The notes under the pieces were generated by a model, which worked only from the letters and a program-made list of their open reading frames with translations, was not told where the DNA came from and searched no databases. From the NCBI GenBank assembly GCA_012026885.1, contig VEPL01000030.1, forward strand, positions 43,924-107,923: 64,000 nt of DNA. The letters are read 5' to 3'. Source of the stretch: Betaproteobacteria bacterium. GTDB lineage: Bacteria > Pseudomonadota > Gammaproteobacteria > Burkholderiales > Rhodocyclaceae. The first letter of the stretch is position 1, and every line of letters starts with the position of its first letter. Position numbers and translations under genes: made by a program. This document shows positions 1,872 through 63,865 of the stretch, in pieces.

Positions 1872-4583
1872 ATGGAAACCCTGTCCGAACCGCGCTGGCA
1901 AGAAGCGCTCGCGCTCAGCCGCTACCTGTCCAACCTGCTCGCCGCGCAACCGGCGCTTGTTCCGGTTCTTGCCGCCACCTGGCACGAACCGCTGGCCGCC
2001 GCGGCACTGCACGAGGCCCTCGACCCGCCGCCAGCCGACGATGAAACGCTCAAGCGCAGCCTGCGCCGGGTGCGCCAGCGGGCGATGGCGCACATCGCGC
2101 TGCGCGATTTGTGCGGCCTCGCCTCGCTGGCGGAAGTGGTCGAAAGCATGACCCTGCTCGCCGACCTGACCACCAATTTCGCCCTCGACCATCATCACCG
2201 GCAGCTCGCTGCCCAGTTCGGCGAACCGCTCGACCGCGAGGGCCGTCCGACGCGGCTGATGATCGTCGGCATGGGCAAGCTCGGCGGGCGCGAACTGAAT
2301 GTTTCATCGGACGTCGATTACATCTTCATCTACCCCGAGGAAGGCGACACCGCCGGCCCGAAATCGATCGAGAATTTCGACTTTTTCACCCGCCTCGGCA
2401 AGCGCGTGATCCAGGCGCTGGGCGACATCACCGCCGACGGCCAGGTCTTCCGGGTCGACATGCGCCTGCGCCCGAATGGCGACTCCGGGCCGCTGGTCTG
2501 CTCGCTCGATGCGCTCGAGAACTACTTCATCACCCAGGGACGCGAGTGGGAGCGCTACGCCTGGATCAAGGCGCGCGTCATGAACTCCGGCGCCAACGCC
2601 GACGGCCCCGCCATGGCAGGCTGGATCGACGCACTGCAAAAAGTCTCCCGCCCCTTCGTCTTCCGCAAGTACCTCGACTTCGGCGCCATCAATGCGATGC
2701 GCGACCTGCACGCGCAGATCCGTCGCGAAGTCGCGCGCAAGGACATGGTCGACCACATCAAGCTCGGCCCGGGAGGCATCCGGGAAATCGAGTTCATCGC
2801 CCAGGTCTTCCAGCTGATCCGCGGCGGCCGCGACACCGCCCTGCAGGTGCGCCCGACGCTCGTAGTCCTGAAACTGCTGGCCGGGCGCCGGTTGATTCCG
2901 GAAGCGACCGAGAGCGAACTCGCCGAAGCTTATACATTCCTGCGTCGCCTCGAGCACCGCCTGCAATACGTCGAGGACAAGCAGACCCACATGCTGCCCG
3001 CCGATGACGGCGACCGCAGCCGCATTGCGACCAGCCTCGGCTTCGCCGGCTGGGATGCACTGCTGGCGCAACTCGACGACCACCGCGAGCGGGTCAGCCG
3101 GCATTTCGAGGCGGTTTTCTCCGACCCCGAAGCCGGGGAGCATCCCCTGACCGGCCTCTGGATGGGACAAGTCGACGAGGACGACGGGATCGAGGCCTTG
3201 GGCAACCTGGGTTTCCGCCGCCCGCACGAGGCCCTCGCCCAGCTCGCCGCCATGCGTGCCTCGAGCCGATACCAGCAGTTGCCCGCCCCCAACCGCGCCC
3301 GCCTCGATGCCATCGGTCCGCGCTTCATCGAGGTCTCCGGTAGCACCGCCGACCCCGACATGACTTTCGCGCGCGGCCTCAATTTCGTCGACGGCGTTGC
3401 CCGCCGCGGTTCCTACCTCGCGCTACTCCAGCAATACCCGCTCGCCCTGAAGCGCGTTGCCGACATGGTTTGCGCCTCCAGCTGGGCCGCGGAGTACCTC
3501 GCCCGCCACCCGCTGCTGCTCGACGAGTTGCTCGACCCCCGACTCTACGAAATCGCCACCGACTGGCCCGGCTTCCGCCAGTCGCTCCGCCACAACCTGG
3601 CGACCCATGCCGACGACACCGAGCGGGAAATGGACATCCTGCGCGAAATGCACCACGCCCAGGTGTTCCGTCTGCTGGCACAGGACCTTGCCGGCCTGCA
3701 GACGATCGAGAGCCTTTCCGACCACCTCACCGAGCTGGCCGACACGATCGTCCAGGAAACCTTGCCGCTGGTGTGGAGCAAGATCCGGAACCGCCATTGC
3801 GACGTTCCGAAATTCGCCGTCATCGGCTACGGCAAGCTCGGCGGCAAGGAGCTCGGCTATGCCTCCGACCTCGACCTCGTCTATCTTTACGACGATGAAG
3901 ATCCGGATGCACCCGAGAATTACACGCGCCTCGCCCAGCGCCTCAACACATGGCTGTCGAGCCAGACGCCGGCCGGCATATTGTTCGAGACCGATCTGCG
4001 CCTGCGCCCGAACGGCGATGCCGGTCTCCTCGCAGTCACTGTCGCCTCATTCCGCGACTATCAGCTCAACCACGCCTGGACCTGGGAACACCAGGCGCTG
4101 ACGCGCGCGCGCTGGTGTGCCGGCGACGCCGAGGTCGGACGCCGCTTTGAGGAGATTCGCATCGAGATCCTGCGTCAGCCGCGCGACCTCGCCAAGTTAC
4201 GCACGGAAGTCATGGAGATGCGCCATAAGATGTACGACGCCCATGCCTCGCGAAGCGACACCGAGTTCGGATTGAAGCACGACCGTGGCGGCATCATCGA
4301 TGTCGAGTTCATCGTGCAATACCTGGTACTCGGCCATGCGTGCCGCCATCCCGAACTGACCGGCAACCTCGGCAACATCGCGCTCCTGCGTATCGCCGGG
4401 GAACTCGGCCTGATCGATCCGAGGCAGGCCAGGGCGGCGGGCGATGCCTATCGTGAATACCGGCGCCTGCAACACGCGCGACGCCTTTCGGCGACGCCGA
4501 AGGCGCCGGTTCCGCGGGACCAGGTAGAACAGCACATCGCCGCGGTCGACGCGCTACGCGTAGCGGTTTTCAGCGGCGACTGA
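1872..4583 (+). CDS. glnE: bifunctional glutamine synthetase adenylyltransferase/deadenylylase
   Basis: 903 residues, close to the family norm of about 950. The enzyme adds AMP to, or removes it from, glutamine synthetase in response to PII signalling, so it sets nitrogen assimilation. Two nucleotidyltransferase domains are visible. The first carries GMGKLGGRELNVSSDVD at about residue 132 (deadenylylase half). The second carries GYGKLGGKELGYASDLDL at about residue 651 (adenylylase half). Both keep the paired Asp residues of the SDxD motif. The ATG at 1872 is preferred over 1797 because 1797 falls between the -35 and -10 boxes. No strong Shine-Dalgarno is seen. The gene is monocistronic and divergent from yhdP. 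Confidence 0.96.
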   Translation: METLSEPRWQEALALSRYLSNLLAAQPALVPVLAATWHEPLAAAALHEALDPPPADDETLKRSLRRVRQRAMAHIALRDLCGLASLAEVVESMTLLADLTTNFALDHHHRQLAAQFGEPLDREGRPTRLMIVGMGKLGGRELNVSSDVDYIFIYPEEGDTAGPKSIENFDFFTRLGKRVIQALGDITADGQVFRVDMRLRPNGDSGPLVCSLDALENYFITQGREWERYAWIKARVMNSGANADGPAMAGWIDALQKVSRPFVFRKYLDFGAINAMRDLHAQIRREVARKDMVDHIKLGPGGIREIEFIAQVFQLIRGGRDTALQVRPTLVVLKLLAGRRLIPEATESELAEAYTFLRRLEHRLQYVEDKQTHMLPADDGDRSRIATSLGFAGWDALLAQLDDHRERVSRHFEAVFSDPEAGEHPLTGLWMGQVDEDDGIEALGNLGFRRPHEALAQLAAMRASSRYQQLPAPNRARLDAIGPRFIEVSGSTADPDMTFARGLNFVDGVARRGSYLALLQQYPLALKRVADMVCASSWAAEYLARHPLLLDELLDPRLYEIATDWPGFRQSLRHNLATHADDTEREMDILREMHHAQVFRLLAQDLAGLQTIESLSDHLTELADTIVQETLPLVWSKIRNRHCDVPKFAVIGYGKLGGKELGYASDLDLVYLYDDEDPDAPENYTRLAQRLNTWLSSQTPAGILFETDLRLRPNGDAGLLAVTVASFRDYQLNHAWTWEHQALTRARWCAGDAEVGRRFEEIRIEILRQPRDLAKLRTEVMEMRHKMYDAHASRSDTEFGLKHDRGGIIDVEFIVQYLVLGHACRHPELTGNLGNIALLRIAGELGLIDPRQARAAGDAYREYRRLQHARRLSATPKAPVPRDQVEQHIAAVDALRVAVFSGD

Positions 4584-22472: not shown

Positions 22473-25400
22473 ATGAGCACCAACCAGGACCGCCTCGGCC
22501 TTTCCGGGCGCATCGCCGCCGCCTTCCAGGAATCGCGGATGACGCCGCTGCTGGCACTGGTCGCCCTCCTGCTCGGCATTTTCGCGACGCTGGTCACGCC
22601 GCGCGAGGAGGAGCCGCAGATCGACGTGACCATGGCCGACGTGCTGGTCGCTTTTCCCGGCGCCTCGGCCAAGGACGTCGAGAACCTGGTCGCGCGCCCG
22701 GCCGAGCAGGTGCTGTCGCGCATGCACGGGGTCGAGCACGTCTATTCGATGTCGCGGCCGGGCATGGCGGTGATCACCGTGCAGTTCGACGTCGGCGTCA
22801 AGTACAACGACGCCGTGCTGCGCCTCTACGACACCGTGCATTCGCACCGCGACTGGCTGCCGTCCAACCTCGGCGTGCAGGAGCCGGTAATCAAGCCGCG
22901 CGGCATCGACGACGTGCCCATCCTAGCCCTCACCTTCTGGACGAAGGACCCGGAACGCTCGGCCTACGAGCTGCAGCAGGTGGCGCGCGCCGTCGAGATC
23001 GAATTGAAGCGCATCAAGGGCACGCGCGACGTGTCGACGCTGGGCGGCCCCGACCACGCCATCCGCGTGCTGATGGACACCGAGCGGATGAACGCCTACG
23101 GCGTCACCCCGCAGGAAATCGCCGGCGCCCTCAAGGTCTCGAACGCGCTGCAATCGTCGGGCAACCTGACCGCCGGCAACCGCGAGGTACTGGTGCAGAC
23201 CGGCACCTACCTCGAATCCGCCGCCGACGTGAAGCAGCTGGTCGTCACCGTGCGCGATGGCAAGCCCGTGTTCATGAGCGACGTCGCGACGGTCGAGGAC
23301 GGCCCCGACCAGCCGAAGCGTTACGCCTGGTTCGGCAACAAGGACGGGGAGTTTCCCGCCGTCACCATCCAGCTGTCCAAGCAGCCCGGCGTCAATGCTG
23401 CCGATGTCGCGTCGGCTGCGGTCGACCGCATCAATTCGCTCAAAAACACGGTGATCCCCGAAGGCGTCGAAGTCACCGTCACCCGCAACTACGGCGAGAC
23501 CGCCACCGAGAAGGCGCAAAAGCTGATCGGCAAGCTGATCTTCGCCACCGCCTTCGTCGTCCTCCTCGTTTTCTTCGCCCTCGGCCGCCGCGAAGCGGTG
23601 ATCGTCGGCGTCGCCGTTACCCTGACCCTGGCTGCGACGCTGTTCGCCTCGTGGACCTGGGGCTTCACGCTCAACCGGGTGTCGCTGTTCGCGCTGATCT
23701 TCTCGATCGGCATCCTGGTCGACGACGCCATCGTCGTCGTCGAGAACATCCACCGCTGGCAGGGCCTGCACCCCGGCAAGCCGCTGCGCGAGATCATCCC
23801 GCCGGCGGTCGACGAAGTCGGCGGGCCGACCATCCTGGCGACGCTGACGGTGATCGCCGCGCTGCTGCCGATGGCCTTCGTGAGCGGCCTGATGGGCCCG
23901 TACATGAGCCCGATCCCGATCAATTCGTCGATGGGCATGGCCATCTCGCTGGCCGTCGCCTTCGTCGTCACGCCCTGGCTGGCGCTCAAGCTGATGCGGG
24001 CCCACGGCCCGGACGCGGCCGGCCACGCGCCGTCGAAGCTCGACGCCCGGCTCGACGCCACCTTTCGCAAGCTGCTGACGCCCTTCCTCGACCCGCAGAA
24101 GGGCGGCGCGGCGCGCGTCAAGCTCGGCCTCGCCGTCGTGCTGCTGATCCTCGGCTCGGTGTCGCTGGCGTATTTCCAGCTGGTCGTCCTGAAAATGCTG
24201 CCCTTCGACAACAAGAGCGAATTCCAGGTTGTCCTCGACATGCCGGTCGGCACGCCGGTCGAGGAGACGGCGCGCGTGCTGCACGAGGTCGGCGCCGTGC
24301 TGGCGCAGGAAGCCGACGTCGTCGACTACCAGGCCTACGCCGGCACCGCCAGCCCGATCAATTTCAACGGTCTGGTCCGCCAGTACTACTTGCGCGCCGC
24401 GCCGGAAAAGGGCGACATCCAGGTCAACCTGGCCGAAAAGCACCATCGGTCGCGGAAGAGCCACGAGATCGCCGTCTCGCTGCGCGAGCGCATCGAGGCC
24501 ATCGGCAGGAAGAACGGCGGCGTCGCCAAGGTCGTCGAGGTGCCACCGGGGCCGCCGGTGCTGTCGCCCATCGTCGCCGAAATCTACGGGCCGGACATGG
24601 CCGGCCAGATGGCGGTCGGCAAGCAGGTGCGCGCGGCATTTGCCGACACCAAGGATCTGGTTGCGGTCGACGACACTATCGATGCCGATTCCAAAAAATT
24701 CGTGCTGCACGTGCTGCAGAGCAAGGCGGCGCTGCTCGGCGTGGTGCAGAGCGACATCGTCGACGTGGTCGGCATGGGGCTGGCCGGGCAGGACGTGACG
24801 CCGGCGCGCAACACCGAATCCAAGTTCGAGATCCCGGTGCGCGTGACCCTGCCGGCCGAGAAGCAGTCGAACCTCGATGCCCTCCTGAAGCTGCGCGTGC
24901 GCTCCAAGGACAGCCATCTGGTCCCGGTGTCCGAACTCGTGGAAGTCCGCGAGACGAGCCGCGAGAAGGCGATCTATCACAAGGACCTGTTGCCGGTCGT
25001 GTATGTCGTCGGCGACATGGGCGGCAAACTCGACTCGCCGCTCTACGGCATGTTCGACGCGCGCTCGAAGATCATCGGCAAGGAACTCAGGGAAGGCGGC
25101 ACCCTCGGCGAATGGTTCATCCGCCAGCCGGGCGACCCCTACGCCGGCTACAGCGTCAAATGGGACGGTGAGTGGCAGGTGACCTACGAGACCTTCCGCG
25201 ACATGGGCATCGCCTACGGCGTCGGCCTGATCCTGATCTACCTGCTGGTCGTCGCCCACTTCGGCAGCTATCTGGTGCCGCTCATCATCATGGCGCCGAT
25301 CCCGCTCACCATCATCGGCGTCATGCCCGGGCATGCGCTGCTCGGCGCGCAATTCACCGCGACCTCGATGATCGGCATGATCGCGCTGGCCGGCATCATC

Positions 25401-25676
25401 GTCCGCAACTCGATTCTGCTCGTCGATTTCATCAGGCAACAGGTCGCCTCCGGCATGAGCTTCCACGACGCGGTGATCCAGTCCGCCGCCGTGCGCGCCA
25501 AGCCGATCGCGCTGACCGCGCTGGCGGCCATGCTCGGCGCCCTGTTCATCGTCGACGACCCGATCTTCAACGGGCTGGCCATCAGCCTGATCTTCGGCAT
25601 TCTGGTCTCCACGCTACTGACGCTGGTGGTGATCCCGGTGCTTTACTTCTCAGCCTTCAGAAAGGAACACCCATGA
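22473..25676 (+). CDS. RND-family efflux pump, inner-membrane subunit
   Basis: 1067 residues, the usual length. Twelve membrane helices and two large periplasmic loops are expected. Recognisable blocks are GASAKDVENLVARPAEQVL (porter domain) and FSIGILVDDAIVVVENIHRW in helix 4 near residue 413, with the proton-relay Asp pair. It follows the adaptor by three bases. The substrate is not clear: the sequence lacks obvious heavy-metal-pump features, and members of this branch are often annotated only as AcrB-like. The stop overlaps the DUF2892 start (ATGA). Confidence 0.95.
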   Translation: MSTNQDRLGLSGRIAAAFQESRMTPLLALVALLLGIFATLVTPREEEPQIDVTMADVLVAFPGASAKDVENLVARPAEQVLSRMHGVEHVYSMSRPGMAVITVQFDVGVKYNDAVLRLYDTVHSHRDWLPSNLGVQEPVIKPRGIDDVPILALTFWTKDPERSAYELQQVARAVEIELKRIKGTRDVSTLGGPDHAIRVLMDTERMNAYGVTPQEIAGALKVSNALQSSGNLTAGNREVLVQTGTYLESAADVKQLVVTVRDGKPVFMSDVATVEDGPDQPKRYAWFGNKDGEFPAVTIQLSKQPGVNAADVASAAVDRINSLKNTVIPEGVEVTVTRNYGETATEKAQKLIGKLIFATAFVVLLVFFALGRREAVIVGVAVTLTLAATLFASWTWGFTLNRVSLFALIFSIGILVDDAIVVVENIHRWQGLHPGKPLREIIPPAVDEVGGPTILATLTVIAALLPMAFVSGLMGPYMSPIPINSSMGMAISLAVAFVVTPWLALKLMRAHGPDAAGHAPSKLDARLDATFRKLLTPFLDPQKGGAARVKLGLAVVLLILGSVSLAYFQLVVLKMLPFDNKSEFQVVLDMPVGTPVEETARVLHEVGAVLAQEADVVDYQAYAGTASPINFNGLVRQYYLRAAPEKGDIQVNLAEKHHRSRKSHEIAVSLRERIEAIGRKNGGVAKVVEVPPGPPVLSPIVAEIYGPDMAGQMAVGKQVRAAFADTKDLVAVDDTIDADSKKFVLHVLQSKAALLGVVQSDIVDVVGMGLAGQDVTPARNTESKFEIPVRVTLPAEKQSNLDALLKLRVRSKDSHLVPVSELVEVRETSREKAIYHKDLLPVVYVVGDMGGKLDSPLYGMFDARSKIIGKELREGGTLGEWFIRQPGDPYAGYSVKWDGEWQVTYETFRDMGIAYGVGLILIYLLVVAHFGSYLVPLIIMAPIPLTIIGVMPGHALLGAQFTATSMIGMIALAGIIVRNSILLVDFIRQQVASGMSFHDAVIQSAAVRAKPIALTALAAMLGALFIVDDPIFNGLAISLIFGILVSTLLTLVVIPVLYFSAFRKEHP

Positions 25677-25897
25677 CCATCGAACGCATGATCCGCATCA
25701 TGGCCGGCTTCTTCGTCCTGCTCTCGCTGGCACTCGGCTGGCACGGCAGCCCGCTCTTCGTTTCCGAGTGGTTCCTCGCCTTCACCGCCTTCGTCGGCCT
25801 CAACCTGCTGCAGAGCGGCTTCACAGGGTTCTGCCCGCCGGAAAAGCTGCTGGCGAAGCTGGGCTTCAAGCGCGGGAACGGTTCCTGCGGGGTCTGA
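25673..25897 (+). CDS. DUF2892 small membrane protein (YgaP-like transmembrane domain)
   Basis: 74 residues. MTIERMIRIMAGFFVLLSLA begins the first helix, and the second is WFLAFTAFVGLNLLQSGFTG, followed by FCPPEKLLAKLGFKRG. This is the membrane part found in the rhodanese-like protein YgaP, here without the rhodanese domain. Four-base overlap with the pump gene shows coupled translation. The Cys in GFCP is a family hallmark. A role in sulfur or thiol chemistry at the pump is only an idea from the family name. Confidence 0.85.
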   Translation: MTIERMIRIMAGFFVLLSLALGWHGSPLFVSEWFLAFTAFVGLNLLQSGFTGFCPPEKLLAKLGFKRGNGSCGV

Positions 25898-25906
25898 CTA
25901 CCCGCT

Positions 25907-26107
25907 TCAGCTCTCGCCGTCGCGCAGCCGCCGCTCGCGATCGAGCCAGGCGCGACAAGCCTTGCGCAGGAAGGCCATCTGCTCGCTGAAATTGCGGCAG
26001 CCCTTGCAGATCGCAAGGTGCATCTCGAGCTGGACGCGTTCGGCAAGGCCGAGATTACGGTCCTGTGCCTGCGACATCAGGCGGGTAGCCTCCTTGCAGC
26101 TCAGCAC
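25907..26107 (-). CDS. zinc-finger anti-sigma factor (zf-HC2)
   Basis: 66 residues. HLAICKGC gives the HxxxCxxC zinc motif (His30, Cys34, Cys37), with an early Cys4 completing a likely ZAS-type site. There is no membrane segment, so it is a soluble anti-sigma of the redox- or metal-responsive type. The GTG at 26107 overlaps the sigma factor stop, so the two are co-translated. Zinc or thiol chemistry could release the sigma factor; this is inferred. Last gene of the operon. Confidence 0.85.
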   Translation of the reverse strand: MLSCKEATRLMSQAQDRNLGLAERVQLEMHLAICKGCRNFSEQMAFLRKACRAWLDRERRLRDGES

Positions 26108-26691
26108 GGCTTTTCCCCGGCGAACCAACCCTGCTCGAGACAGCCGCGCAAGGCGGCGCGCGCGCGGTGCAGGATGACGTGGCAATTGCCGGCGCTGATC
26201 TCCAGCTCGGCACAAATCTCGTCGGTATCGAGCTCCATCACTTCGCGCAGCATGAAGACGCGCGCCGTGTTGGCGGGCAGGTGCTCGAGGCAGGTCTCGA
26301 ACACGGCCCAGAAGCCCTTTTCGCGCAGCGTTTCCTCCGGGTCGCCCCAGGCAGCCGGACGCGCGACCGGATGCCAGTGGGCATTTTCCTTGAACAAGGC
26401 CTCGAAGGCCTGGTCGAGCCCTTCGTCGTCGGCGGCGAAGGCCGAAGCCGGCGTGCTCCGCGCCTGCTGGCGGATCCCGTCCACAATCTTGTTGCGCAGG
26501 ATGCCGAACACCCAGGTCTTCATCGCCGACGCGCCGGAAAACCGGTCGATGCCGTCGAGCGCCGCAGCGAGCGCTTCCTGAACGGCATCCTCGGCGAGCG
26601 CCGTGTCGCGCAACTGCATCCGGGCGAAGGCGATCATGTCGTGGCGAAGGGATGCAAGGAAGGCGGGATCGACAAGTTCGGCACGTGACAC
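26101..26691 (-). CDS. ECF-type RNA polymerase sigma factor
   Basis: 196 residues. Region 2 appears as MIAFARMQLRDTALAEDAVQ with MKTWVFGILRNKIVDGIR, and region 4 as LPANTARVFMLREVMELD with an ISAGNCHVILHRARAAL recognition helix. The GTG at 26691 is preferred because it begins a normal ECF N-terminus; the upstream extension starts at TTG inside the gap. It lies 23 bases after doxX and overlaps its anti-sigma gene. It probably drives the peptide operon, as do the sigma factors found in other DUF692/DUF2063 operons. Confidence 0.9.
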   Translation of the reverse strand: MSRAELVDPAFLASLRHDMIAFARMQLRDTALAEDAVQEALAAALDGIDRFSGASAMKTWVFGILRNKIVDGIRQQARSTPASAFAADDEGLDQAFEALFKENAHWHPVARPAAWGDPEETLREKGFWAVFETCLEHLPANTARVFMLREVMELDTDEICAELEISAGNCHVILHRARAALRGCLEQGWFAGEKPC

Positions 26692-26714
26692 GAAGGCTGC
26701 CCCTACGGGGTTGG

Positions 26715-27257
26715 TCAGGCTCCGATCATAGCAGGCTGGCTGTGCGGCGCCGAAAACCGCCTGGCGAGCCGCCAACGCAGCGCATGGTCAAGCGAGAGTC
26801 TTCCGGGACCAAGCAGGATCAGCGGCAACAGCGTGGCGAGGAAGATCGTCGCCAGCTTGTAGTTGCCGAAACCCTGGTCGGTCAGCACGTAACCATTGAG
26901 CAGTTCGCCGAGCGTGTGCCATTCCGCCGGCCAGTGCACGCTCAGGATGGCGACCACGGTGAGGGCGAAGAGCGACAGCGAGAAAAAGCGGGTCGCCAGC
27001 CCGATGACCAGCGCGATGCCGCCGGCCAGCTCGAACCAGGTCGCCATCTGCCAGCTGATCTCGGGTGGCACGAGGCTGAACGGGAAGGGGAAACGGTCCT
27101 GGATGTCGAGGAACCAGTTTTCGCCGCGGAACTTTTCGAGGCCGGACTCGAAGAACTCCCAGCCGAGAACGAGGCGAAGGCTCAGCAGGCCGACCCACAG
27201 GCCGGCGGCATCAGCGGCCGCGATGCCACGGGAGCCGAAGGACAGAAGCTTGTTCAT
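26715..27257 (-). CDS. DoxX-family membrane protein
   Basis: 180 residues with about four membrane helices: LWVGLLSLRLVLGWEFFESG, ATWFELAGGIALVIGLATRF, SLSLFALTVVAILSVHW and LATIFLATLLPLILLGPGRL. GGGGAGTGCACC precedes the ATG, which overlaps the DUF2063 stop (ATGA). DoxX-like proteins commonly accompany DUF692/DUF2063 modification genes and are thought to work in membrane redox processes. A direct role in quinone or thiol redox for the exported peptide is plausible but unproven. Confidence 0.9.
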   Translation of the reverse strand: MNKLLSFGSRGIAAADAAGLWVGLLSLRLVLGWEFFESGLEKFRGENWFLDIQDRFPFPFSLVPPEISWQMATWFELAGGIALVIGLATRFFSLSLFALTVVAILSVHWPAEWHTLGELLNGYVLTDQGFGNYKLATIFLATLLPLILLGPGRLSLDHALRWRLARRFSAPHSQPAMIGA

Positions 27258-27997
27258 GGTGCACTCCCCAGGATGATGCCCTGCCCGCGCAACTGCGCCA
27301 GCAGGTCGTTGCCGAAGCGGATCAGCGCCTCGGGATCAGGATGCCGCAGCTCGCCGGCGATGGTCGCCAGCGCGGCGCGGCCGCTCAGGACGCCCGGCGC
27401 AAGCAGCTCGATCAGGCGTGCCGTCGTCGCGTTGCTCTCGACAAACCGGACCGCGTCGGCGGCATCGCGATGGACGATCAGCCAGGTAGGATGCGGCAGA
27501 CGCGGCCGACTGTCCGGGCCGATGCGATGCACCGGCCAGCCATAGGCGAGGTTCATCAGCGCCGGGTTGAGGAGCGGCAAGCCATCCAGCAGGTCACCGC
27601 CGGGATCGTGCGCCGGCACGGTGGCTTCCATGGTGTCCACCGCCAGTTCCACCCATTCGTAGTGCAGCAGGTCCGGCAGGTAGCCCGCCAGGCGCAGCCG
27701 CGTCCGGTACTCGGCCACGAAGCGCACGAACTCGCGCGGGATTTCGCGGAACCACGGCGTATGCAGCGGCCAGTCGCGATAGAAGCTGCGGTTCAGCCGA
27801 CGCCAGCGCGCTTCGCCGAGCATCGCCCGCGCCACCGGGAAGCAGGCATCGAGGAAGCTGCACAGGTTGTTGAAGAGAAGTTCGTTGTAGGCGGCCATGC
27901 GCCGGGCCGGCACGCCGGGCGGACGCGGCGCGTGGTGCGGGTCGCGCAGGTGGCGCCCGAAGGCACGCTGGAAATCCTGGAAGTCGGTGTGCATCAT
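27254..27997 (-). CDS. bufC: DUF2063 partner protein of the MNIO enzyme (BufC/HvfC-like)
   Basis: 247 residues. The N-terminal DUF2063 domain is visible as FQDFQRAFGRHLRDP and MAAYNELLFNNLCSFLDACF, followed by REFVRFVAEYRTRLRLAGYL and LLHYEWVELAVDTMEA; these are conserved in the family. Such proteins bind the precursor peptide leader and pass it to the DUF692 enzyme. ATGATG at 27997 and 27994: the first ATG overlaps the MNIO stop by four bases and is taken as the start. The symbol is used by analogy. Confidence 0.9.
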   Translation of the reverse strand: MMHTDFQDFQRAFGRHLRDPHHAPRPPGVPARRMAAYNELLFNNLCSFLDACFPVARAMLGEARWRRLNRSFYRDWPLHTPWFREIPREFVRFVAEYRTRLRLAGYLPDLLHYEWVELAVDTMEATVPAHDPGGDLLDGLPLLNPALMNLAYGWPVHRIGPDSRPRLPHPTWLIVHRDAADAVRFVESNATTARLIELLAPGVLSGRAALATIAGELRHPDPEALIRFGNDLLAQLRGQGIILGSAP

Positions 27998-28842
27998 GCC
28001 GCTTTCCTTGCCGGTGGCGCTGCGGCCTGCAGGCGGGCGATCTGGCGGACTTCCGCGCACAGGGTCGCCAGGTCGGGCAGGTTGAAGTCGCGCTCGAGGC
28101 AGGTCGGCACCGCGCCGCCGATGCGCTCGTAGGCCGCCGCGAGGAGGGACCACACCGGGTCGATGACGGCCGCCCCGTGCGTGTCGATGACCAGGCCATC
28201 CGCCTCGACATAATGGCCGGCGACATGGACATAGGCGGTGCGCGCGAGCGGCAGGGCGTCGAGGAAGGCAAGCGGGTCGAAGCCGAAATTGCGGCTATTG
28301 ACATAGACGTTGTTCACGTCGAGGTGGAGCAGGCAGTCGGCCTCGCGGACGACCGCCGAAATGAATTCCGCTTCGCCCATCTCGGCGCCGGGGGGGACCA
28401 CGTAGGTAGAGGCATTCTCGACCGCAATGCGCATGCCGAGCAGGTCCTGCGCCTGACGGATGCGGTCGACGGTCCAGCGGACCGCTTTTTCGGTAAGCGG
28501 GATCGGCAACAGGTCATAGAGGCGGGCATCGTCGCCGCACCACGAGAGGTGCTCGGTATAGAGCGTCATCCCGTGCTCGGCCATGAAACTGCGGATGCGC
28601 TTGAGCAGCGCCACGTCGAGCGGCGCGATGCCGCCGAGCGACAGCGACAGCCCGTGGCAGGCGAAAGGGTAGCGCTCGGTGAAGGCGCGCAGTTCGCGGG
28701 CCGAGCGCCCGCCCATGCCGGCCCAGTTTTCCGGGGCCAGCTCGAAGAAGGCGATCTCGTCCGGAACCCCGGCCTGCAGTTCGCCGACCAGTTCGCGCCG
28801 GAAGCCGAGGCCGGCGCCGCGCGGTTCACGAAGCCCGGGCAT
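27994..28842 (-). CDS. bufB: DUF692 multinuclear non-heme iron oxidative enzyme (MNIO, BufB/HvfB-like)
   Basis: 282 residues, TIM-barrel. Probable metal ligands are seen at the expected places: His63 (ACHGLSLSLG), Glu97-His98 (TEHLSW), Glu142 (VENAS), His173 and Asp175 (LHLDVNNVYVN), His206 and His210 (VHVAGH), Asp220 and His222 (DTH), and Glu250 (ERDFN). Family knowledge: these enzymes use two or three iron atoms and oxygen to convert Cys residues of a ribosomal peptide into copper-binding heterocycles or related groups. It overlaps the redoxin stop and the DUF2063 start by ATGA, so the genes form one translational unit. Confidence 0.94.
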   Translation of the reverse strand: MPGLREPRGAGLGFRRELVGELQAGVPDEIAFFELAPENWAGMGGRSARELRAFTERYPFACHGLSLSLGGIAPLDVALLKRIRSFMAEHGMTLYTEHLSWCGDDARLYDLLPIPLTEKAVRWTVDRIRQAQDLLGMRIAVENASTYVVPPGAEMGEAEFISAVVREADCLLHLDVNNVYVNSRNFGFDPLAFLDALPLARTAYVHVAGHYVEADGLVIDTHGAAVIDPVWSLLAAAYERIGGAVPTCLERDFNLPDLATLCAEVRQIARLQAAAPPARKAA

Positions 28843-29375
28843 CAGGCCTCTCCGCGCGCCGGATACTCCTTGGCGACGACGAAATCGATGGCGCCGAGCA
28901 TGTCCTTGAAGTGGGGGCGTGCGAAAGGCATGGTCTGGATGCTGCTCCAGTACAGCGTGAGATCGGGGCGGACGAGAAAAATCCCGGGCTCGGAAAACTG
29001 CGCCGGTTCCTCGACCCCGGTCGAGGTCAGCCCGCGCCCGGTCGAGACGTACAGGCCCCAGCGCCGGGCGATCTCCAGCGGCAGGCCGTAGCCGAGGTCG
29101 AGGCGGTCGAGCGACCACTCGGTCGCGGCCTTGCGGGCGCGATCTTCCGTATCGGACGACAGCACCAGCAATTCGACGCCGCGCTGCGCGAAGTCATCGA
29201 CCAGGCGGTTGAGTTCGGTCAGGTAGGTGCGGCAGATCGGGCAGTGGTAGCCGCGATAGAAGACGACAAGACTGAAGGCTTGCGCCCGTCCGGCGACCAA
29301 CTCCAGGCCGGCGCCGGAAAGGGACGGCACGACCAGCGGCGGTACGGGTTGGCGCGGCATCAATCGTTCGGACAT
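28842..29375 (-). CDS. peroxiredoxin/thioredoxin-like protein
   Basis: 177 residues with a thioredoxin fold: FSLVVFYRGYHCPICRTYLT contains a CPIC active site (Cys45, Cys48), and LNRLVDDFAQRGVELLVLSS continues the AhpC/TSA-like pattern. There is no signal peptide, so it acts in the cytoplasm. CGAGGAGAATCCG precedes the ATG. It lies between the peptide gene and the MNIO gene, an uncommon insertion. It could keep the peptide Cys residues reduced before modification or protect the iron enzyme; both ideas are inference. Confidence 0.88.
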   Translation of the reverse strand: MSERLMPRQPVPPLVVPSLSGAGLELVAGRAQAFSLVVFYRGYHCPICRTYLTELNRLVDDFAQRGVELLVLSSDTEDRARKAATEWSLDRLDLGYGLPLEIARRWGLYVSTGRGLTSTGVEEPAQFSEPGIFLVRPDLTLYWSSIQTMPFARPHFKDMLGAIDFVVAKEYPARGEA

Positions 29376-29398
29376 CGGATTCTCCTCGGGACAAGAAC

Positions 29399-29420
29399 GG
29401 GGCGGGCAGCAGCCCGCCCC
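29399..29420 (-). terminator. strong hairpin between the peptide gene and the redoxin gene
   Basis: A perfect 9-base-pair stem, GGGGCGGGC with GCCCGCCCC, and a four-base loop lies 10 bases after the peptide stop codon. Only a weak T-rich run follows, so it probably acts as a partial terminator or 3' stabiliser that gives more peptide than enzyme mRNA. Confidence 0.6.
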
Positions 29421-29430
29421 TCGGTTCAAC

Positions 29431-29802
29431 TTATTTCTTCGCCCCGCACTTCGCTTCGCCGCACTTGCCGTCGGCCTTCTTGTCGGCCGGCTTCTTGTCG
29501 GCACCGCACTTGGCCTCGCCACACTTGCCGTCCTTCTTCTTGTCGGCTGCCTTCTTGTCGGCACCGCACTTGGCTTCGCCACACTTGCCGTCCTTCTTCT
29601 TGTCGGCTGCCTTCTTGTCGGCACCGCACTTGGCTTCGCCGCATTTGCCGTCCTTCTGCTTCGTATCGGCCTGGGCAAGCTGGTAGCCGGCCTCGAGCTT
29701 CGTGGCGGAGAACGGGTTGTCGGCCGCATGGGCGACCGGCGCGAGCGCGACTGCGGCAAAGGCGGAACCGACAGCCAGGGAAACGAGATTCTGCTTTTTC
29801 AT
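29431..29802 (-). CDS. secreted Cys-repeat peptide, probable MNIO substrate (bufferin/HvfA-like)
   Basis: 123 residues. A signal peptide (SLAVGSAFAAVALAPVAHA, cleavage after residue 26) is followed by a short spacer with FSATKLEAGYQLAQA, then by a low-complexity region made of the 20-residue unit DGKCGEAKCGADKKAADKKK starting at residues 51, 71 and 91, with a partial fourth unit at 111-123. There are eight Cys in total (54, 59, 74, 79, 94, 99, 114, 119), all in KCGEAKCG, a motif close to the EGKCG motif of HvfA-type precursors. The ATG at 29802 has GGAG at good spacing; the ATG at 29814 does not. It is the first gene of the operon. Confidence 0.9.
   Translation of the reverse strand: MKKQNLVSLAVGSAFAAVALAPVAHAADNPFSATKLEAGYQLAQADTKQKDGKCGEAKCGADKKAADKKKDGKCGEAKCGADKKAADKKKDGKCGEAKCGADKKPADKKADGKCGEAKCGAKK
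29434..29652 (-). repeat. 60-base tandem repeat in the peptide gene
   Basis: Three full 60-base units (29652-29593, 29592-29533, 29532-29473) and a 39-base partial unit, almost identical in DNA. Each unit encodes two Cys. Near-identity suggests recent duplication or gene conversion, and repeat number could vary among strains. Confidence 0.9.
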
Positions 29803-29827
29803 GGTTTTCTCCATCGAGGTGGGGTGG

Positions 29828-29848
29828 GGCACCGGCGATTCCGGTGCC
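29828..29848 (-). promoter_or_regulatory. stem-loop in the leader of the peptide operon
   Basis: GGCACCGG and CCGGTGCC form an 8-base-pair inverted repeat around CGATT, 26 bases upstream of the ATG. A second related stretch, GCCGGCACCGGC (29861-29872), could pair alternatively. The ECF promoter should lie between about 29870 and 29940, but no consensus could be picked with confidence. Confidence 0.35.
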
Positions 29849-29969
29849 TGAGCGTTCGTCGCCGGCACCGGCAAATTCTTACAGCGATTCGGAGAAAAGT
29901 TTGCTGGCGGAGAAAGTGCCGTCACGTCCGTCGCCGTCCGGGATCGGCGCCACCACCCTGCCGCCGCCC

Positions 29970-30575
29970 TCAGTCGACTTCCAGCCAGATTTCGTTGCGT
30001 CTCAGGAACCACGGCTTCCACGGCGGATCGTAGCGCGCCCATACCGGATTGCTCCGCCAGGCCAGGCCGGCGGCCGCCAGCGCATCCTGAAGTTTCTTGA
30101 GATGCTCCGCGTAGCGCCCTTGTGTCCATGTCCCGGAATAACCGATGACAGCGAACGTGCGCGCCGGCACCTCGCGCAGGATGACGCGCTTGTCGAGAGG
30201 TTCCGGCAGGGTTTCCAGCGTCCATTCCCGGGGCATCGCAAACTGGACGACATAGCCGCCGGCAGTCGCGCTCTGCGCCACCGGAGCGGTCATCGCAATC
30301 TTCGCCGGCGCCTGGGCCACCGGCGCCGTCATCGCGATCTTTCGCTCCCCCTTGTTCTGCCCGAAGATATATCCGGCCAGAATCCGGAACCCCTGGTTAC
30401 CGGCATCGTCCGGTGCGGCGTTGACCACCGTCTCGGCCACGAGGCAAGGCTCGTAGCGGCGCACTTCGAAAACCTCGCCGGTCTGGATCACCTTGTACTG
30501 CGGCTCTTCGATGGCTATCACAAGACTCCCGGTCGCGAACAAGAAGACGGCAGCCAGATAATGCATCCGCTTCAT
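29970..30575 (-). CDS. SOUL-family heme-binding protein
   Basis: 201 residues. A hydrophobic N-terminus (YLAAVFLFATGSLVIA) looks like a signal peptide or anchor. EPQYKVIQTGEVFEVRRYEP is the standard start of the SOUL domain, and MTAPV is its hallmark; here KIAMTAPVAQ occurs twice in a row (residues about 79-104). The ATG at 30575 has GGGGA at good spacing; an ATG six bases upstream does not. It is followed by the peptide operon in the same direction, 167 bases away. Heme binding is family knowledge; no heme-ligand His is evident. Confidence 0.9.
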   Translation of the reverse strand: MKRMHYLAAVFLFATGSLVIAIEEPQYKVIQTGEVFEVRRYEPCLVAETVVNAAPDDAGNQGFRILAGYIFGQNKGERKIAMTAPVAQAPAKIAMTAPVAQSATAGGYVVQFAMPREWTLETLPEPLDKRVILREVPARTFAVIGYSGTWTQGRYAEHLKKLQDALAAAGLAWRSNPVWARYDPPWKPWFLRRNEIWLEVD

Positions 30576-30854
30576 CAACATTCCCCGTCGGTCGCCGCGC
30601 CAGATTCACGGATACCCGCCACCGGAACAATGACAGAGGATTTGCTGCGGCACGTCAAGGCTTCAAGCTTTACATGAGATCAGCCCGGTCAGACTGTTTG
30701 CGTCCTGAGTCATACACAAGTGCCCGCAAGTTCGCTTGGATACCTATACCCTTGAACGGATAATCGGCAGTTCTGCAGGTATGCTTTTGGCGTACATTGA
30801 CTCGGTCGCCAGTGGAAACTTGAGGCCGGCTCTTTGATTTTTTGGGAGAAGACC

Positions 30855-31736
30855 ATGGATTTCTTGGGGGTGCTGCTTTTTTTGGTGGTCTTGGCCTATT
30901 TCCTTAGCCCCATAGTGAAGGGCTACAAGGAGGGGCGCCGATCAGAGGAGAAAGAGGCGCCGATTAACCGTGTCACAACGACTGGAAGCCGTTCCGATGG
31001 CACCACTGGGCATGAAGCCGATCAAGACCACGATAACTGGGAAGGTGCGTTCTGGGATGTACAGTCGCCCAGAAATGTTAAGGCAGACCTGCGAATCGAA
31101 TATCGTGATGGCGCAGGCTCGGTGACGAAACGCGACATACAAGTAATGAAGTACGGGGCTTGGGACGGCGGAGCAATCCTATGGGCCTACTGTCAATTAA
31201 GGCGAGCGAACAGGACCTTTCGTACGGATCGGGTTATTTCTTGCACTGACCTAGATACAGGCGAGGTTATCGAAGAACTCGAGAAGTGGCTTGACGCTAA
31301 GTATCAAGAGTCGCCAGACCGTGCAATTGAGCAGGTAATTGAGACCGCCTGGGACGCAGTACGAGTCCTGTTTTACGTTAGCAAAGCCGACGGGAGGCTA
31401 ACTCAGAAAGAACGAACCATACTCCGCGACGCCATTCGCAGCATGAGTGACCATCCCGCCGTTAACGATAGTCGAATTGACGATCTGATTCAGGCACTAG
31501 ATACGCCAAGTACAGCATCTTTCAAGCAGGCATTTGGCCGCCTTGCTAATCGAAACCGCGCATTGGCTGAAAAGGTAGCAGTCTGGGCTGAGGCTATGGT
31601 CGCGACGGAAAAGACAGTAGCTGCCGCAGAGCAAGAAGCCGTGGCATACCTTAGGGCGCGGCTTGTAAAGACACCGTCAGCGGCCGAAGCGAATCGAAAT
31701 GCAGGCTTCCAATCGGCCAGATCTTTAGCCGTCTGA
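30855..31736 (+). CDS. membrane-anchored protein with WYL-like and TerB-like domains
   Basis: 293 residues. One N-terminal membrane helix (FLGVLLFLVVLAYFLSPIV), a polar linker, a central domain with RDIQVMKYGAWDGGAILWAY and DRVISCTDLDTGEVIEEL that resembles WYL-type sensory folds, and a C-terminal TerB-like helical domain (VLFYVSKADGRLTQKERTIL). GGGAGAAGACC precedes the ATG. Base and codon use are clearly more AT-rich than in its neighbours, so it was probably acquired. Function is not known; TerB domains occur in stress and phage-defence settings. Confidence 0.75.
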   Translation: MDFLGVLLFLVVLAYFLSPIVKGYKEGRRSEEKEAPINRVTTTGSRSDGTTGHEADQDHDNWEGAFWDVQSPRNVKADLRIEYRDGAGSVTKRDIQVMKYGAWDGGAILWAYCQLRRANRTFRTDRVISCTDLDTGEVIEELEKWLDAKYQESPDRAIEQVIETAWDAVRVLFYVSKADGRLTQKERTILRDAIRSMSDHPAVNDSRIDDLIQALDTPSTASFKQAFGRLANRNRALAEKVAVWAEAMVATEKTVAAAEQEAVAYLRARLVKTPSAAEANRNAGFQSARSLAV

Positions 31737-31862
31737 GTGACTGGTTCATCGCGAAAAACCGGCTTCCGGGACCGCCCTGTCGTTTCTCCCGGCAGATTGC
31801 GTCAAACCGGAATCGCGATTCGGCTGGGCTAAAATTCGCGATCACGCTTTGGGGAGAATCGC

Positions 31863-32729
31863 ATGAAAATCGGATTCATCGGACTCGGGATCATGGGGCG
31901 CCCGATGGCGCTCAACCTGTTGAAGGGCGGCCACGAAGTCACCGTCTGGGCGCGCCGCGCCGAATCGATGCAGCCGCTGCGCGAAGCCGGCGCACAAGGC
32001 GCCGACAGCCCGGCCGGGGCCGCGCAGGGCAATGAACTGGTGATCTCGATGGTCGCCGATGCGCCGGATGTTGCCGAGGTGATGCGCGGCGTCGTGCAGG
32101 GTGCTGCACCCGGCCTCGTCGCTGTCGACATGAGCACCATCGCCCCGGCCGCAGCGCGCCGGATCGGCGAGGAACTGGCGGCCGCCGGCATCGATTTCAT
32201 GGATGCTCCAGTGTCCGGCGGCGAGGTCGGCGCCATCGCCGGCACGCTGTCGATCATGGCCGGCGGTTCGGAGGCAGCTTTTGCCCGGGCGCAACCGGCC
32301 TTCGCCTGCATGGGCAAGAACATCGTGCATGTCGGCGCATCCGGCGCCGGCCAGGTGGCCAAGGCCTGCAACCAGATCGTCACCGGCATGGGCGTGCTGG
32401 CGGTGGCCGAGGCCTTCGCTTTTGCCGCGAAAAACGGTGTCGACCGCAGCCGGGTGCGCGAGGCGCTGCTCGGCGGCTTCGCCTACTCGAAGATCCTCGA
32501 GAACCACGGCCAGCGCATGCTCGACCGCAATTTCAAGCCGGGCTTCAAGAGCTGGATGCACGAGAAGGACCTCAACATCGTCATGCAGACCGCGCACGAG
32601 CTGGGCGTCTGCCTGCCCGGCGCGGCGGCGACGGCGCAGATGTTCAACGCGATGGTCGGCTCCGGCCTCGGCGAGGAGGACTCGATCGCCGTGCTGAAGC
32701 TGCTCGAACGTCTGTCGGGGCAGGCATGA
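31863..32729 (+). CDS. beta-hydroxyacid dehydrogenase (GarR/GlxR-like), first copy
   Basis: 288 residues. GFIGLGIMGRPMALNLLKGG is the NAD(P)-binding loop, DMSTIAP and MDAPVSGGEVGA form the substrate-binding region, and GASGAGQVAKACNQIV carries the catalytic Lys. Members of this family reduce tartronate semialdehyde, succinic semialdehyde or 3-hydroxyisobutyrate-type substrates. GGGGAGAATCGC precedes the ATG. It overlaps the second copy by four bases. The exact substrate cannot be fixed from sequence. Confidence 0.93.
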   Translation: MKIGFIGLGIMGRPMALNLLKGGHEVTVWARRAESMQPLREAGAQGADSPAGAAQGNELVISMVADAPDVAEVMRGVVQGAAPGLVAVDMSTIAPAAARRIGEELAAAGIDFMDAPVSGGEVGAIAGTLSIMAGGSEAAFARAQPAFACMGKNIVHVGASGAGQVAKACNQIVTGMGVLAVAEAFAFAAKNGVDRSRVREALLGGFAYSKILENHGQRMLDRNFKPGFKSWMHEKDLNIVMQTAHELGVCLPGAAATAQMFNAMVGSGLGEEDSIAVLKLLERLSGQA

Positions 32730-33604
32730 AGGTCGGGTTCATCGGCCTCGGGGCCATGGGCCGCCCGATGGCGCTGCACCTGCAGCGGGCCGGCCATGAC
32801 CTGCACGTCTGGGCGCGCCGGCCGGAAAGCGCTGCCGACCTGCCGGCAACGGTATGCGCGACGCCGGCCGAGCTCGGGCGCCGCTGCGAGGTGGTGTTCA
32901 CCATCATCACCTCGAGCGCCGATGTCGAGGCCGTCGCGCTCGGCGCCGACGGCCTGAGCGAGGGCATGGCCGCCGGTTCGGTACTGGTCGACTGCTCGAC
33001 CATCGCCCCGGACGCGGCCCGTCGCATTGCCGGGCGGCTGGCCGACGAGGGCATCCACATGCTCGACGCGCCTGTTTCCGGCGGCAGCCAGGGCGCCATC
33101 GACGCGACGCTGGCGATCATGGCCGGCGGCGACGCGGCCGTGCTCGAGCGCGTGCGCCCGCTGCTCGCCTGCCTCGGGCAGCGCATCGTCCATGTCGGCC
33201 CCAACGGCGCCGGTCAGGTGGCCAAGGCCTGCAACCAGATGATCATGGTCGCCGCCATCGAGGCGGCTGCCGAGGCCATGCGCCTGGCTGCTGCTGCCGG
33301 TGTCGATCAGGCCAGGGTGCGGGCGGCGCTGGCCGGTGGCTCGGCCGGCTCGCGCGTGCTCGAGGTGTTCGGCGGGCGCATGGTGGCGCGCGATTTCGCC
33401 GCCGGCGTCGAGGCACGGCTGCACCACAAGGATTACGGACTGGTGCTGGAGGCGGCGCGCAAATCGGGGGTGCCGGTGCCGTTGACCGCAGCCGTCAGCC
33501 AGCAGCTCAATGCGCTGATGTCGCTGGGCTGGGGAGACGACGACACCGCCTCGCTGCTGCGCGTGCTCGAGCGCAGCGCCGGGGACGTCAGCCGAACACG
33601 GTAA
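32726..33604 (+). CDS. beta-hydroxyacid dehydrogenase (GarR/GlxR-like), second copy
   Basis: 292 residues with the same signatures: GFIGLGAMGRPMALHLQRAG, DCSTIAP, LDAPVSGGSQGA and GAGQVAKACNQM. It is a tandem paralogue of the preceding gene but clearly diverged, especially in the middle and C-terminal helical domain, so substrate or cofactor preference likely differs. Its 3' end overlaps the convergent small gene by 17 bases. Confidence 0.92.
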   Translation: MKVGFIGLGAMGRPMALHLQRAGHDLHVWARRPESAADLPATVCATPAELGRRCEVVFTIITSSADVEAVALGADGLSEGMAAGSVLVDCSTIAPDAARRIAGRLADEGIHMLDAPVSGGSQGAIDATLAIMAGGDAAVLERVRPLLACLGQRIVHVGPNGAGQVAKACNQMIMVAAIEAAAEAMRLAAAAGVDQARVRAALAGGSAGSRVLEVFGGRMVARDFAAGVEARLHHKDYGLVLEAARKSGVPVPLTAAVSQQLNALMSLGWGDDDTASLLRVLERSAGDVSRTR

Positions 33605-62453: not shown

Positions 62454-63290
62454 ATGACTCATTTCACTGCCGACGACGGCGCCCGGATACACGTCAAGAT
62501 ATCGGGTGACGGCCCGCCCGTGGTGATGCTGCATGGCTGGACGTCCAGCCATCAGGAATGGTTTCCCTTCCTGCCCGAATTGACGAAGGCACATCGCGTC
62601 TATCGCTGGGATGCGCGCGGCCACGGCGGGCACCCGGTCACCGGCGGAGACCCGCCGACCGTCGAGCGCATGGCCCGCGACCTGCACAACCTGTTGACGC
62701 ACTACGGGCTCGAGGCGGTCACGGCTGTCGGGCACTCGATGGGCGCGCTAACGCTGTGGCAGTACATCCGAGACTTCGGCACCGGCCGCCTGGCGCGCGT
62801 CTGCTTCATCGACCAATCCCCGAAGCTGCTTACCGACCCGACCTGGGAACACGGCATCTACGGCGATTTCGGCAGCGAAAGGGCCGGCGAACTGATGACC
62901 TGGCTGAACGAGGATTTCGCCGAAGGGGTGCTCAAGCTGACGGCATTCGGCCTCAACGAGCGGGCGCGTGACAAATACCTGGCCGGGGCCAGCGGCTGGG
63001 AGCGTTCGCGCAATGCCCTGCGTGCGCAGGATCCTAGGCCGCTGATCGAATGCTGGGCCAGCCTGACGGCGGCCGACTACCGCGACGTGCTCAGCCGGAT
63101 CGATGTGCCCGCCTTGCTGGTCTATGGCGGGGAGAGCAATTTCTACCTTAGCGAGACGGCCCACTTCGTCGCATCGCAGATTCCGGACGCCATCCTGCAC
63201 ATCTACGAAGGCACCGATCACTCGCCCCACCAGTGGCAGCGCGAACGTTTCACTCGCGAACTGATTGCCTTCGTCAACAATCCGGCTTGA
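62454..63290 (+). CDS. alpha/beta hydrolase
   Basis: 278 residues. VVMLHGWTSSHQEWFPFLPE is the oxyanion-hole region, GHSMGALTLWQYI carries the nucleophile Ser, and the catalytic Asp and His lie near LVYGGESNFYL and EGTDHSPHQW. It looks like an esterase or haloperoxidase-type enzyme of unknown substrate. A TATACT box at 62419-62424 is likely its -10. Convergent overlap of 17 bases with msrA. Confidence 0.92.
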   Translation: MTHFTADDGARIHVKISGDGPPVVMLHGWTSSHQEWFPFLPELTKAHRVYRWDARGHGGHPVTGGDPPTVERMARDLHNLLTHYGLEAVTAVGHSMGALTLWQYIRDFGTGRLARVCFIDQSPKLLTDPTWEHGIYGDFGSERAGELMTWLNEDFAEGVLKLTAFGLNERARDKYLAGASGWERSRNALRAQDPRPLIECWASLTAADYRDVLSRIDVPALLVYGGESNFYLSETAHFVASQIPDAILHIYEGTDHSPHQWQRERFTRELIAFVNNPA

Positions 63291-63804
63291 GCAATTCGGC
63301 GAAGTTTCGGCGAAACTTGGCCACCTTCGGCGCCACGACGAAGGCGCAGTAGCCCTGACCCGGGTTGTTGGCAAAATAACCCTGATGGTAGTCCTCGGCA
63401 CGATGGAAGTCGCCGGCGTCGACGACCTCGGTGACCACCACCTGCCCGCCCAGTGCCTCATTGGCCCGCCGGATTGCCGCATCGGCTTCTGCCCGCTGTT
63501 CCGGTGCAGTGACGAAGATGGCCGAACGATACTGGGTGCCGACATCAGCTCCTTGCCGGTTGAGCGTGGTAGGGTCGTGAATCGCGAAGAATATGTCGAG
63601 CAACCGGGCATAGCTGACCTGCCCGGGGTCGAAATCGATCCGAACCGCTTCCGCATGCCCGGTGGTACCGCTGCAAACCACCTCGTAGCGCGGCTCCCCG
63701 GTTCCGCCGCAATAGCCTGAAATAACGCGGTCAACGCCCGTCACCCGGACAAATACTGCCTCGAGGCACCAGAAGCAGCCGCCGGCCAGAATCGCTGTCG
63801 CCAT
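63274..63804 (-). CDS. msrA: peptide methionine sulfoxide reductase A
   Basis: 176 residues. GGCFWCLEAVF carries the catalytic Cys, with SGYCGGTGEPRYEVV, HAEAVRIDFDPG and the recycling region DYHQGYFANNPGQGYC. It repairs oxidised methionine in proteins. ATG 63804 is chosen; the 32 upstream codons read no family sequence. Transcribed leftwards from near the rRNA terminator. Confidence 0.95.
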   Translation of the reverse strand: MATAILAGGCFWCLEAVFVRVTGVDRVISGYCGGTGEPRYEVVCSGTTGHAEAVRIDFDPGQVSYARLLDIFFAIHDPTTLNRQGADVGTQYRSAIFVTAPEQRAEADAAIRRANEALGGQVVVTEVVDAGDFHRAEDYHQGYFANNPGQGYCAFVVAPKVAKFRRNFAELLKPDC

Positions 63805-63865
63805 GTGACATTCCCGCTCGCAATCGACGTGAACAGTGTACATGAACGGCGCGCTACAAAAGCAA

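Follow-up and report, generated by a model that had tools for sequence, protein, structure and literature searches.

What signal switches on a Cys-repeat peptide operon that carries its own sigma factor and anti-sigma factor, and why does a redoxin gene stand between the gene of the peptide and that of its presumed modifying enzyme? Copper-binding peptides made by multinuclear non-heme iron-dependent oxidative enzymes (MNIOs) form a large class of natural products that has been recognised only recently. In this study, we analysed seven such genes in a 64,000-nucleotide stretch of a Betaproteobacteria bacterium (Rhodocyclaceae; assembly GCA_012026885.1, contig VEPL01000030.1, forward-strand positions 43,924 to 107,923), and we call this whole stretch the window. 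The results indicate that the genes form a peptide-metallophore operon of the HvfA type, which has its own sigma factor of the extracytoplasmic function (ECF) type and its own zinc-binding anti-sigma (ZAS) factor. The operon is likely induced when oxidants (hypochlorite-like) or copper cause oxidation or zinc loss of the anti-sigma, and the redoxin is predicted to sustain maturation of the peptide under such stress. The features were as follows.

29431..29802, minus strand: precursor peptide of the HvfA family, 123 amino acids (NF050137 over cut-off, and sequence)
28842..29375, minus strand: redoxin, 177 amino acids, peroxiredoxin fold, CPIC at Cys45/Cys48 (Pfam AhpC-TSA, structure model)
27994..28842, minus strand: MNIO enzyme of the HvfB family (DUF692), 282 amino acids (NF003818 and PF05114 over cut-off)
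27254..27997, minus strand: HvfC partner protein (DUF2063 and NGO1945_C), 247 amino acids (NF050145, PF09836, PF22106)
26715..27257, minus strand: HvfX membrane protein (DoxX family), 180 amino acids (NF050144, PF07681)
26101..26691, minus strand: ECF sigma factor, 196 amino acids, GTG start (TIGR02943 over cut-off; Sigma70_r2, r4_2)
25907..26107, minus strand: anti-sigma factor with ZAS motif, 66 amino acids, GTG start (NF052368 over cut-off, zf-HC2)
29854..29883, minus strand: predicted ECF (sigma-E type) promoter, TGTAAGAAT-13 bases-CGACGAAC (matrix and pattern scan)
29444..29661, minus strand: 60-bp tandem repeat encoding the Cys units, 3.6 copies, 92% match (Tandem Repeats Finder)
29399..29420, minus strand: GC hairpin of 9 pairs with a weak T tail between the peptide and redoxin genes, a candidate leaky terminator (terminator scan)

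A check of the open reading frames of the window placed all seven genes on the minus strand between 25907 and 29802. Their order and families are those proposed in an earlier sequence-only reading, with coordinates and NCBIfam and Pfam matches in agreement. Neighbouring genes overlap by 1 base (redoxin/MNIO), 4 bases (DUF2063/DoxX) and 7 bases (sigma/anti-sigma); the MNIO/DUF2063 overlap is 4 bases, or 1 base with the next ATG as start, and gaps of 23 and 55 bases separate DoxX from sigma and peptide from redoxin. The NCBIfam scores were 386 bits for HvfB on NF003818 (cut-off 360), 266 for HvfC (142), 138 for HvfX (80) and 81 for the anti-sigma on NF052368 (50), and the MNIO protein reached 323 bits against Pfam. 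Chance open reading frames were ruled out, as six of the seven products exceed curated NCBIfam cut-offs and the redoxin exceeds its Pfam cut-off. The MNIO gene is the only one in the source genome (2,968,539 bases, 38 contigs). When aligned to 3BWW, its product retains DVNN (175-178) and DTHG (DTH 220-222), and the metal-site residues required by HvfB (N175, D242 and H244) are kept, with N175 presumably in exact correspondence.

The peptide contains eight Cys residues, every one of them inside four DGKCGEAKCG units, and its N-terminus resembles by eye a signal peptide ending AHA/A. It matched NF050137, the family of paired-KCG precursors, over the cut-off (expect value 6.8e-25), and scored 66 bits against the strict HvfA equivalog model NF050188 (cut-off 95); because of the latter score it is a member of the HvfA family and not a strict HvfA equivalog. 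The Pfam scan gave no match to DUF2282 (bufferin BufA1) in the peptide, while the HvfB, HvfC and HvfX partners of an HvfA-type operon are all present over their cut-offs. The assignment to the HvfA/bufferin type is thus upheld by family models and gene content. The hairpin behind the peptide gene was also predicted at the peptide-redoxin gap across 8 such operons, in which covariation was unsupported (both partners had changed in 1 of 9 pairs, and the covariation term was unfavourable). Terminator-like sites in the region numbered 7, compared with 3.7 +/- 1.8 in shuffles, and our guess is that the hairpin might keep the peptide message in excess. The comparison loci that we fetched carry L numbers. 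In six of them (L001, L126, L128, L137, L141 and L145), the peptides have mostly lost the paired KCGExKCG and show single KCGADKK-like units, with the MNIO gene kept. In L135, the peptide frame (from 5636) stops early at 35 amino acids, yet MNIO, HvfC and DoxX genes follow.

The redoxin scored 47.9 bits against Pfam AhpC-TSA (cut-off 26) and 38 bits against the SelL-related model NF040769, far under its cut-off of 120; no signal peptide was seen on it. Its structure model had a predicted local distance difference test score of 95.4, the Foldseek matches were peroxiredoxins, and the nucleophilic Cys of that fold is conserved. Both active-site Cys were present in all 78 aligned rows, which remained after 3 of 81 had been dropped for length and which include 3 duplicate-genome loci; the tree used 75 rows. 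Three distant relatives from the same order (L084, L085 and L086) carry an in-frame TGA at the C45 position, in the context RGHW-TGA-(P/A)YC. They are likely selenoproteins, and the TGA suggests a selenocysteine that would mark C45 as the nucleophile.

Relatives of the redoxin were found in 64 named loci, and the search for the gene order that the sequence-only reading had called for located seven of these (L001-L007) beside an HvfA-type peptide. Six of the seven have the MNIO gene in view; the L007 sequence stops just after the redoxin, so the MNIO position lies beyond its end. The nine operon-borne redoxins (those of the seven loci, of the window and of one further genome) formed one clade with 100/100 support, within which the redoxin of the window branches first. 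The redoxin stop and the MNIO start overlap as TGATG in all 8 operons checked (genes of the fetched loci came from a simple caller that misplaced some starts), while the DoxX, thioredoxin, CcdA and sigma genes around the redoxin change position between loci. Some redoxin match occurred in 27 of 60 relatives searched. The close form (at least 76% identity) was confined to five genomes plus the source genome, all of one genus, and 12 other genomes of that genus had a form of 53-60% identity, which falls in a separate clade and has an AraC-type gene alongside in 10 of the 12. Among 399 genomes drawn from the order, 15 had a match at 1e-40. The claim that the redoxin makes this version unusual was borne out, as the operon form is limited to one clade and occurs in 5 of the 21 HvfA-type operons of the genus. 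Of 36 same-genus genomes, 6 had the redoxin in the operon and 12 a stand-alone one, and none had both, an exclusion not beyond chance (P 0.07).

Outside the hvf clade, an ECF sigma gene was found near the redoxin gene in 8 of 83 loci. In L018 (Oryzomicrobium), redoxin, sigma and ZAS anti-sigma genes stand in a row with a sigma-E-like site of 15.7 bits ahead, and the 12.5-kb locus has no hvf genes. A sigma-NrsF-redoxin row occurs once (L239/L259), in L247 the redoxin overlaps an ECF sigma gene by 4 bases, and in L016 and L025 a divergent NrsF-sigma pair lies beside the redoxin (found by tblastn only). A sigma gene is also near the redoxin in L053 and L241, and 2.8 kb off in L013. The redoxin lies within 1.6 kb of an MNIO gene in two loci, L013 (with DUF2282 peptide, MNIO, DUF2063-like and DoxX-like genes) and L257 (with a Cys-rich peptide without Pfam match, MNIO and DUF2063). 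Sigma matches numbered 8 in 309 kb near and 2 in 459 kb far; as four of the five sigma query sequences had been taken from these very loci, the comparison is biased and we claim no enrichment.

The rows in L018 and L259, the overlap in L247 and the divergent pairs in L016 and L025 would suit a redoxin that serves the regulator, re-reducing the anti-sigma after stress and thereby ending the response; its place in the hvf operon would then follow from the membership of this operon in the sigma regulon. The anti-sigma RsrA is re-reduced by thioredoxin. We hold this role possible but doubtful. The gene of the hvf-form redoxin overlaps the MNIO gene in all 8 operons checked, the L001 locus is without a sigma gene, and in L006 the sigma gene is more than 4 kb away. 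Moreover, a single reductase for NrsF and ZAS anti-sigmas, which are unrelated to each other, is a less simple assumption.

It is similarly questionable whether the redoxin is an ordinary thiol peroxidase, that is, one more antioxidant gene of the regulon without a special tie to the peptide or the anti-sigma. The peroxiredoxin fold speaks for such a role, as do the 57 of 64 named redoxin loci that stand apart from hvf genes and the TGA at the C45 position in the three distant relatives, which is like that of redox selenoproteins. However, one clade has retained the redoxin in a single position, coupled to the MNIO gene, despite changes in the neighbouring genes, and nearness of the redoxin to ECF sigma and MNIO genes is recurrent.

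The anti-sigma of the window contains C4, H30, C34 and C37 (plus C51). It is a small soluble protein with H-x3-C-x2-C and Cys4, encoded directly after the sigma gene, as in the sigma-E/MseR type; being a zf-HC2 protein of 66 amino acids, it is not a membrane NrsF anti-sigma of the sigma-F/NrsF system. At least 10 of the 20 other same-genus HvfA-type loci fetched have a relative of it, placed before the peptide gene or after the sigma gene. The sequence-only reading had regarded the soluble zinc anti-sigma as unusual, but Neisseria MseR and the cytoplasmic HrsE of Haemophilus, with 67 amino acids, are of the same type and arranged alike, and we dropped this view. An alternative layout occurs in the genus, in which the anti-sigma gene comes directly before the peptide, the sigma gene is mostly divergent and there is no redoxin (L126-L128, L132, L133, L135, L137, L141, L142, L144 and L145).

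The predicted promoter was scored with a matrix trained on 13 other loci, the window being excluded. Its site reached 20.7 bits and was the sole site of at least 13 bits in the 64-kb window, and the strict promoter pattern gave 1 match in the window and none in 100 shuffles. The spacing of the TGTAA...CGAC site agrees with the Neisseria consensus GTMAGBWTT-N12/13-CGTCTAAH, and 52 bases separate its CGACGAA from the ATG of the peptide. Upstream of the peptide gene, a promoter-like site occurs not only in the window but also in 13 of 24 further loci with hvfA. The remaining 11 have the anti-sigma gene directly before the peptide, and in 6 of them a site of at least 15 bits lies before that anti-sigma gene. 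Across 1308 gene upstreams from 105 sequences, 33 sites reached 15 bits. After removal of 9 training sites and 5 duplicate-genome rows, 19 were left, which precede anti-sigma-peptide, thioredoxin, CcdA, DoxX, DUF2282 and DUF1223 genes and one membrane protein without family scan. The same motif also stands ahead of DUF2282-type peptide genes in two same-genus loci, L138 (type assigned by Pfam) and L148 (by likeness only). In L150, a DUF1223 gene (3685-4500, minus strand) that adjoins a stand-alone redoxin has a full-score sigma-E-like site of 28.9 bits.

In the source genome, the strict pattern gave 2 matches, before hvfA and msrP-msrQ. A relaxed motif gave 3 matches in the 2.97-Mb genome, before the hvf operon, msrPQ and a thioredoxin-CcdA pair, and all three sites lie 13 to 52 bases before the starts of msrP, trxS and hvfA. 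The -10 element of the thioredoxin-CcdA site (CGTCTAAT) fits the Neisseria consensus, and MsrP and MsrQ are over their NCBIfam cut-offs. Among 29 genomes that matched MsrP, we then scored the msrP upstreams of 18, own genome included (the 11 with partial or low-identity matches were left out): 7 of 18 reached 15 bits and 4 more scored 14.2-14.4, compared with 0 of 1386 other windows at 15. These results predict a sigma-E-like promoter and a small regulon that would tie the peptide to oxidised-protein repair, which is new here. As a separate observation, an MsrA gene in the window (63274-63900, minus strand) showed no sigma-E-like site in the window scan.

We compared the operon with published systems (PMC12452194, PMC2893595, PMC7907618, PMC3511200, PMC13097082, PMC8315932, PMC3240639, PMC6180224, PMC3420878 and PMC13419390). 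Neisseria sigma-E controls a DoxX...sigma-MseR operon together with msrA/msrB, and MseR requires its Cys4 and its ZAS cysteines. That operon (NMB2140-NMB2145/NGO1948-NGO1943) shares with the window the promoter layout and the arrangement of DoxX, three further genes, sigma and ZAS anti-sigma in one operon, whereas here a redoxin is added, the peptide gene comes first and DoxX follows HvfC. In Haemophilus, RpoE2 governs the response of the DoxX (hvf) cluster and of msrAB to hypochlorous acid (HOCl), with the cytoplasmic HrsE as anti-sigma. The Haemophilus influenzae hvf (oxazolin) system has in common with ours the HvfB, HvfC and HvfX families and the KCGExKCG peptide domain, all over NCBIfam cut-offs, as well as a small cytoplasmic anti-sigma and methionine sulfoxide repair in the regulon; it differs in that here a redoxin is added, sigma and anti-sigma lie in the same gene row, and the motif is found at msrPQ and thioredoxin-CcdA, not at msrAB. 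Caulobacter sigma-F, with NrsF as anti-sigma, drives two DUF2282-DUF692-DUF2063 (bufferin) operons and YedY. The MNIO enzyme, the DUF2063 partner and ECF control in common with YedY/MsrP are shared, but a DUF2282 peptide and a membrane NrsF are found there, and a KCG-repeat peptide and a ZAS anti-sigma here. EGKCG-repeat clusters of Fontiphorin (FonA) share the repeat peptide with MNIO and DUF2063 partner, which modify it to 5-thiooxazoles there; no redoxin was found in the Fontiphorin text searched, unlike here.

Because of Neisseria NMB2140-2145 with MseR and Haemophilus hvf with its 67-residue anti-sigma, the combination of core, sigma and soluble ZAS anti-sigma is of a known kind, and the redoxin is the uncommon and conserved element. 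"Redoxin" was not found among the papers listed for DUF692 and DUF2063, nor "peroxiredoxin" in those on NrsF, sigma factor and DUF2282 combined, supplements and most subscription papers lying outside both searches. In the accessible text of the MNIO landscape paper, redoxin, thioredoxin and peroxiredoxin did not occur at the start of a word, and the searched part of the captophorin paper contained no "redoxin".

Several results weigh against an oxidant-induced operon whose redoxin supports maturation. A reversed control pattern gave 5 matches in the source genome; the motif count is therefore not above chance, and only the site positions and the downstream genes count. The link between the sigma gene and the msrP site was not significant in the 18 genomes (10/11 versus 4/7, Fisher p 0.25). 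The redoxin is absent from 16 of the 21 same-genus HvfA-type operons, and it is therefore an accessory, not needed for maturation as such. Caulobacter sigma-F responds to chromate and cadmium and not to peroxides, paraquat or diamide, and RpoE7 of Sinorhizobium, the sigma factor behind a DUF692 operon, is unresponsive to peroxide, cadmium and chromate. A purely metal signal, in which copper (or cadmium or chromate) would displace the anti-sigma zinc, the peptide would be a copper buffer and msrPQ and thioredoxin-CcdA would repair copper damage, agrees with the metal response of Caulobacter sigma-F and with copper binding by EGKCG peptides, but we consider it unlikely, as the Haemophilus hvf cluster and msrAB respond to HOCl via RpoE2 and the NrsF-type BcrS of Brucella, with MsrPQ, also responds to HOCl.

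We regard induction by oxidants or copper with a maturation-supporting redoxin as the probable explanation, for which the following course can be proposed. By analogy with MseR and HrsE, oxidation or zinc loss at C4/H30/C34/C37 of the anti-sigma would free the sigma factor. The freed sigma factor would bind the TGTAAGAAT-N13-CGACGAAC motif found here and raise expression of the operon, msrPQ and the thioredoxin-CcdA pair. HvfBC-type enzymes form copper-binding 5-thiooxazoles and EGKCG peptides bind copper, and by this precedent HvfB and HvfC would work in the cytoplasm, converting the repeat Cys of the peptide to 5-thiooxazoles, and after export the peptide would bind copper and act as a copper sink. 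Copper buffering by the peptide is plausible, and the predicted co-regulated genes (msrPQ and thioredoxin-CcdA) point to Cys/Met oxidation at least as much as to copper. Substrate thiols are the starting point of the MNIO reaction, and in vitro ascorbate together with HvfC brought the enzyme to its active Fe(II)/Fe(III) state. The cytoplasmic redoxin would act on thiols that have to be kept reduced; the precursor is its most likely target, the anti-sigma a possible one and the MNIO iron cluster a less likely one. In this way, the MNIO step would continue under oxidative stress with the help of a CxxC redoxin whose gene is coupled to that of the enzyme.

The immediate surroundings of the operon were also recorded. 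A gene for a SOUL heme-binding protein (29970-30581, minus strand) lies just upstream on the same strand, and tblastn found no relative of it in other hvf loci. Positions 22473-33604 of the window share neighbours with L149 of genome G018, namely an RND (resistance-nodulation-division) pump, a YgaP-like gene and two dehydrogenase-like genes (recognised by eye). At the spot of the window's hvf operon, G018 has a stand-alone redoxin and an AraC-type gene, and the hvf operon may have replaced these two genes of the G018 layout.

A further conceivable role is that of a dedicated redox partner or cellular reductant of the MNIO pathway, in which the redoxin would maintain the precursor Cys in reduced form or help the HvfB iron cluster to reach its active mixed-valent state. 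We give this role rather little credence. If it were true, a copper-binding peptide could be made just while the cell thiols are oxidised. The redoxin would then be a general component of the stress response, given its recurrence next to MNIO operons with peptides of the HvfA type, the DUF2282 type or another Cys-rich type, and next to sigma systems of the ZAS and NrsF kinds. The clade in which redoxin and MNIO genes overlap, under a predicted promoter type that genes for methionine-sulfoxide and thiol repair also have, makes two matters testable: the reducing power for MNIO peptide maturation, and the wiring of this maturation to oxidised-protein repair.

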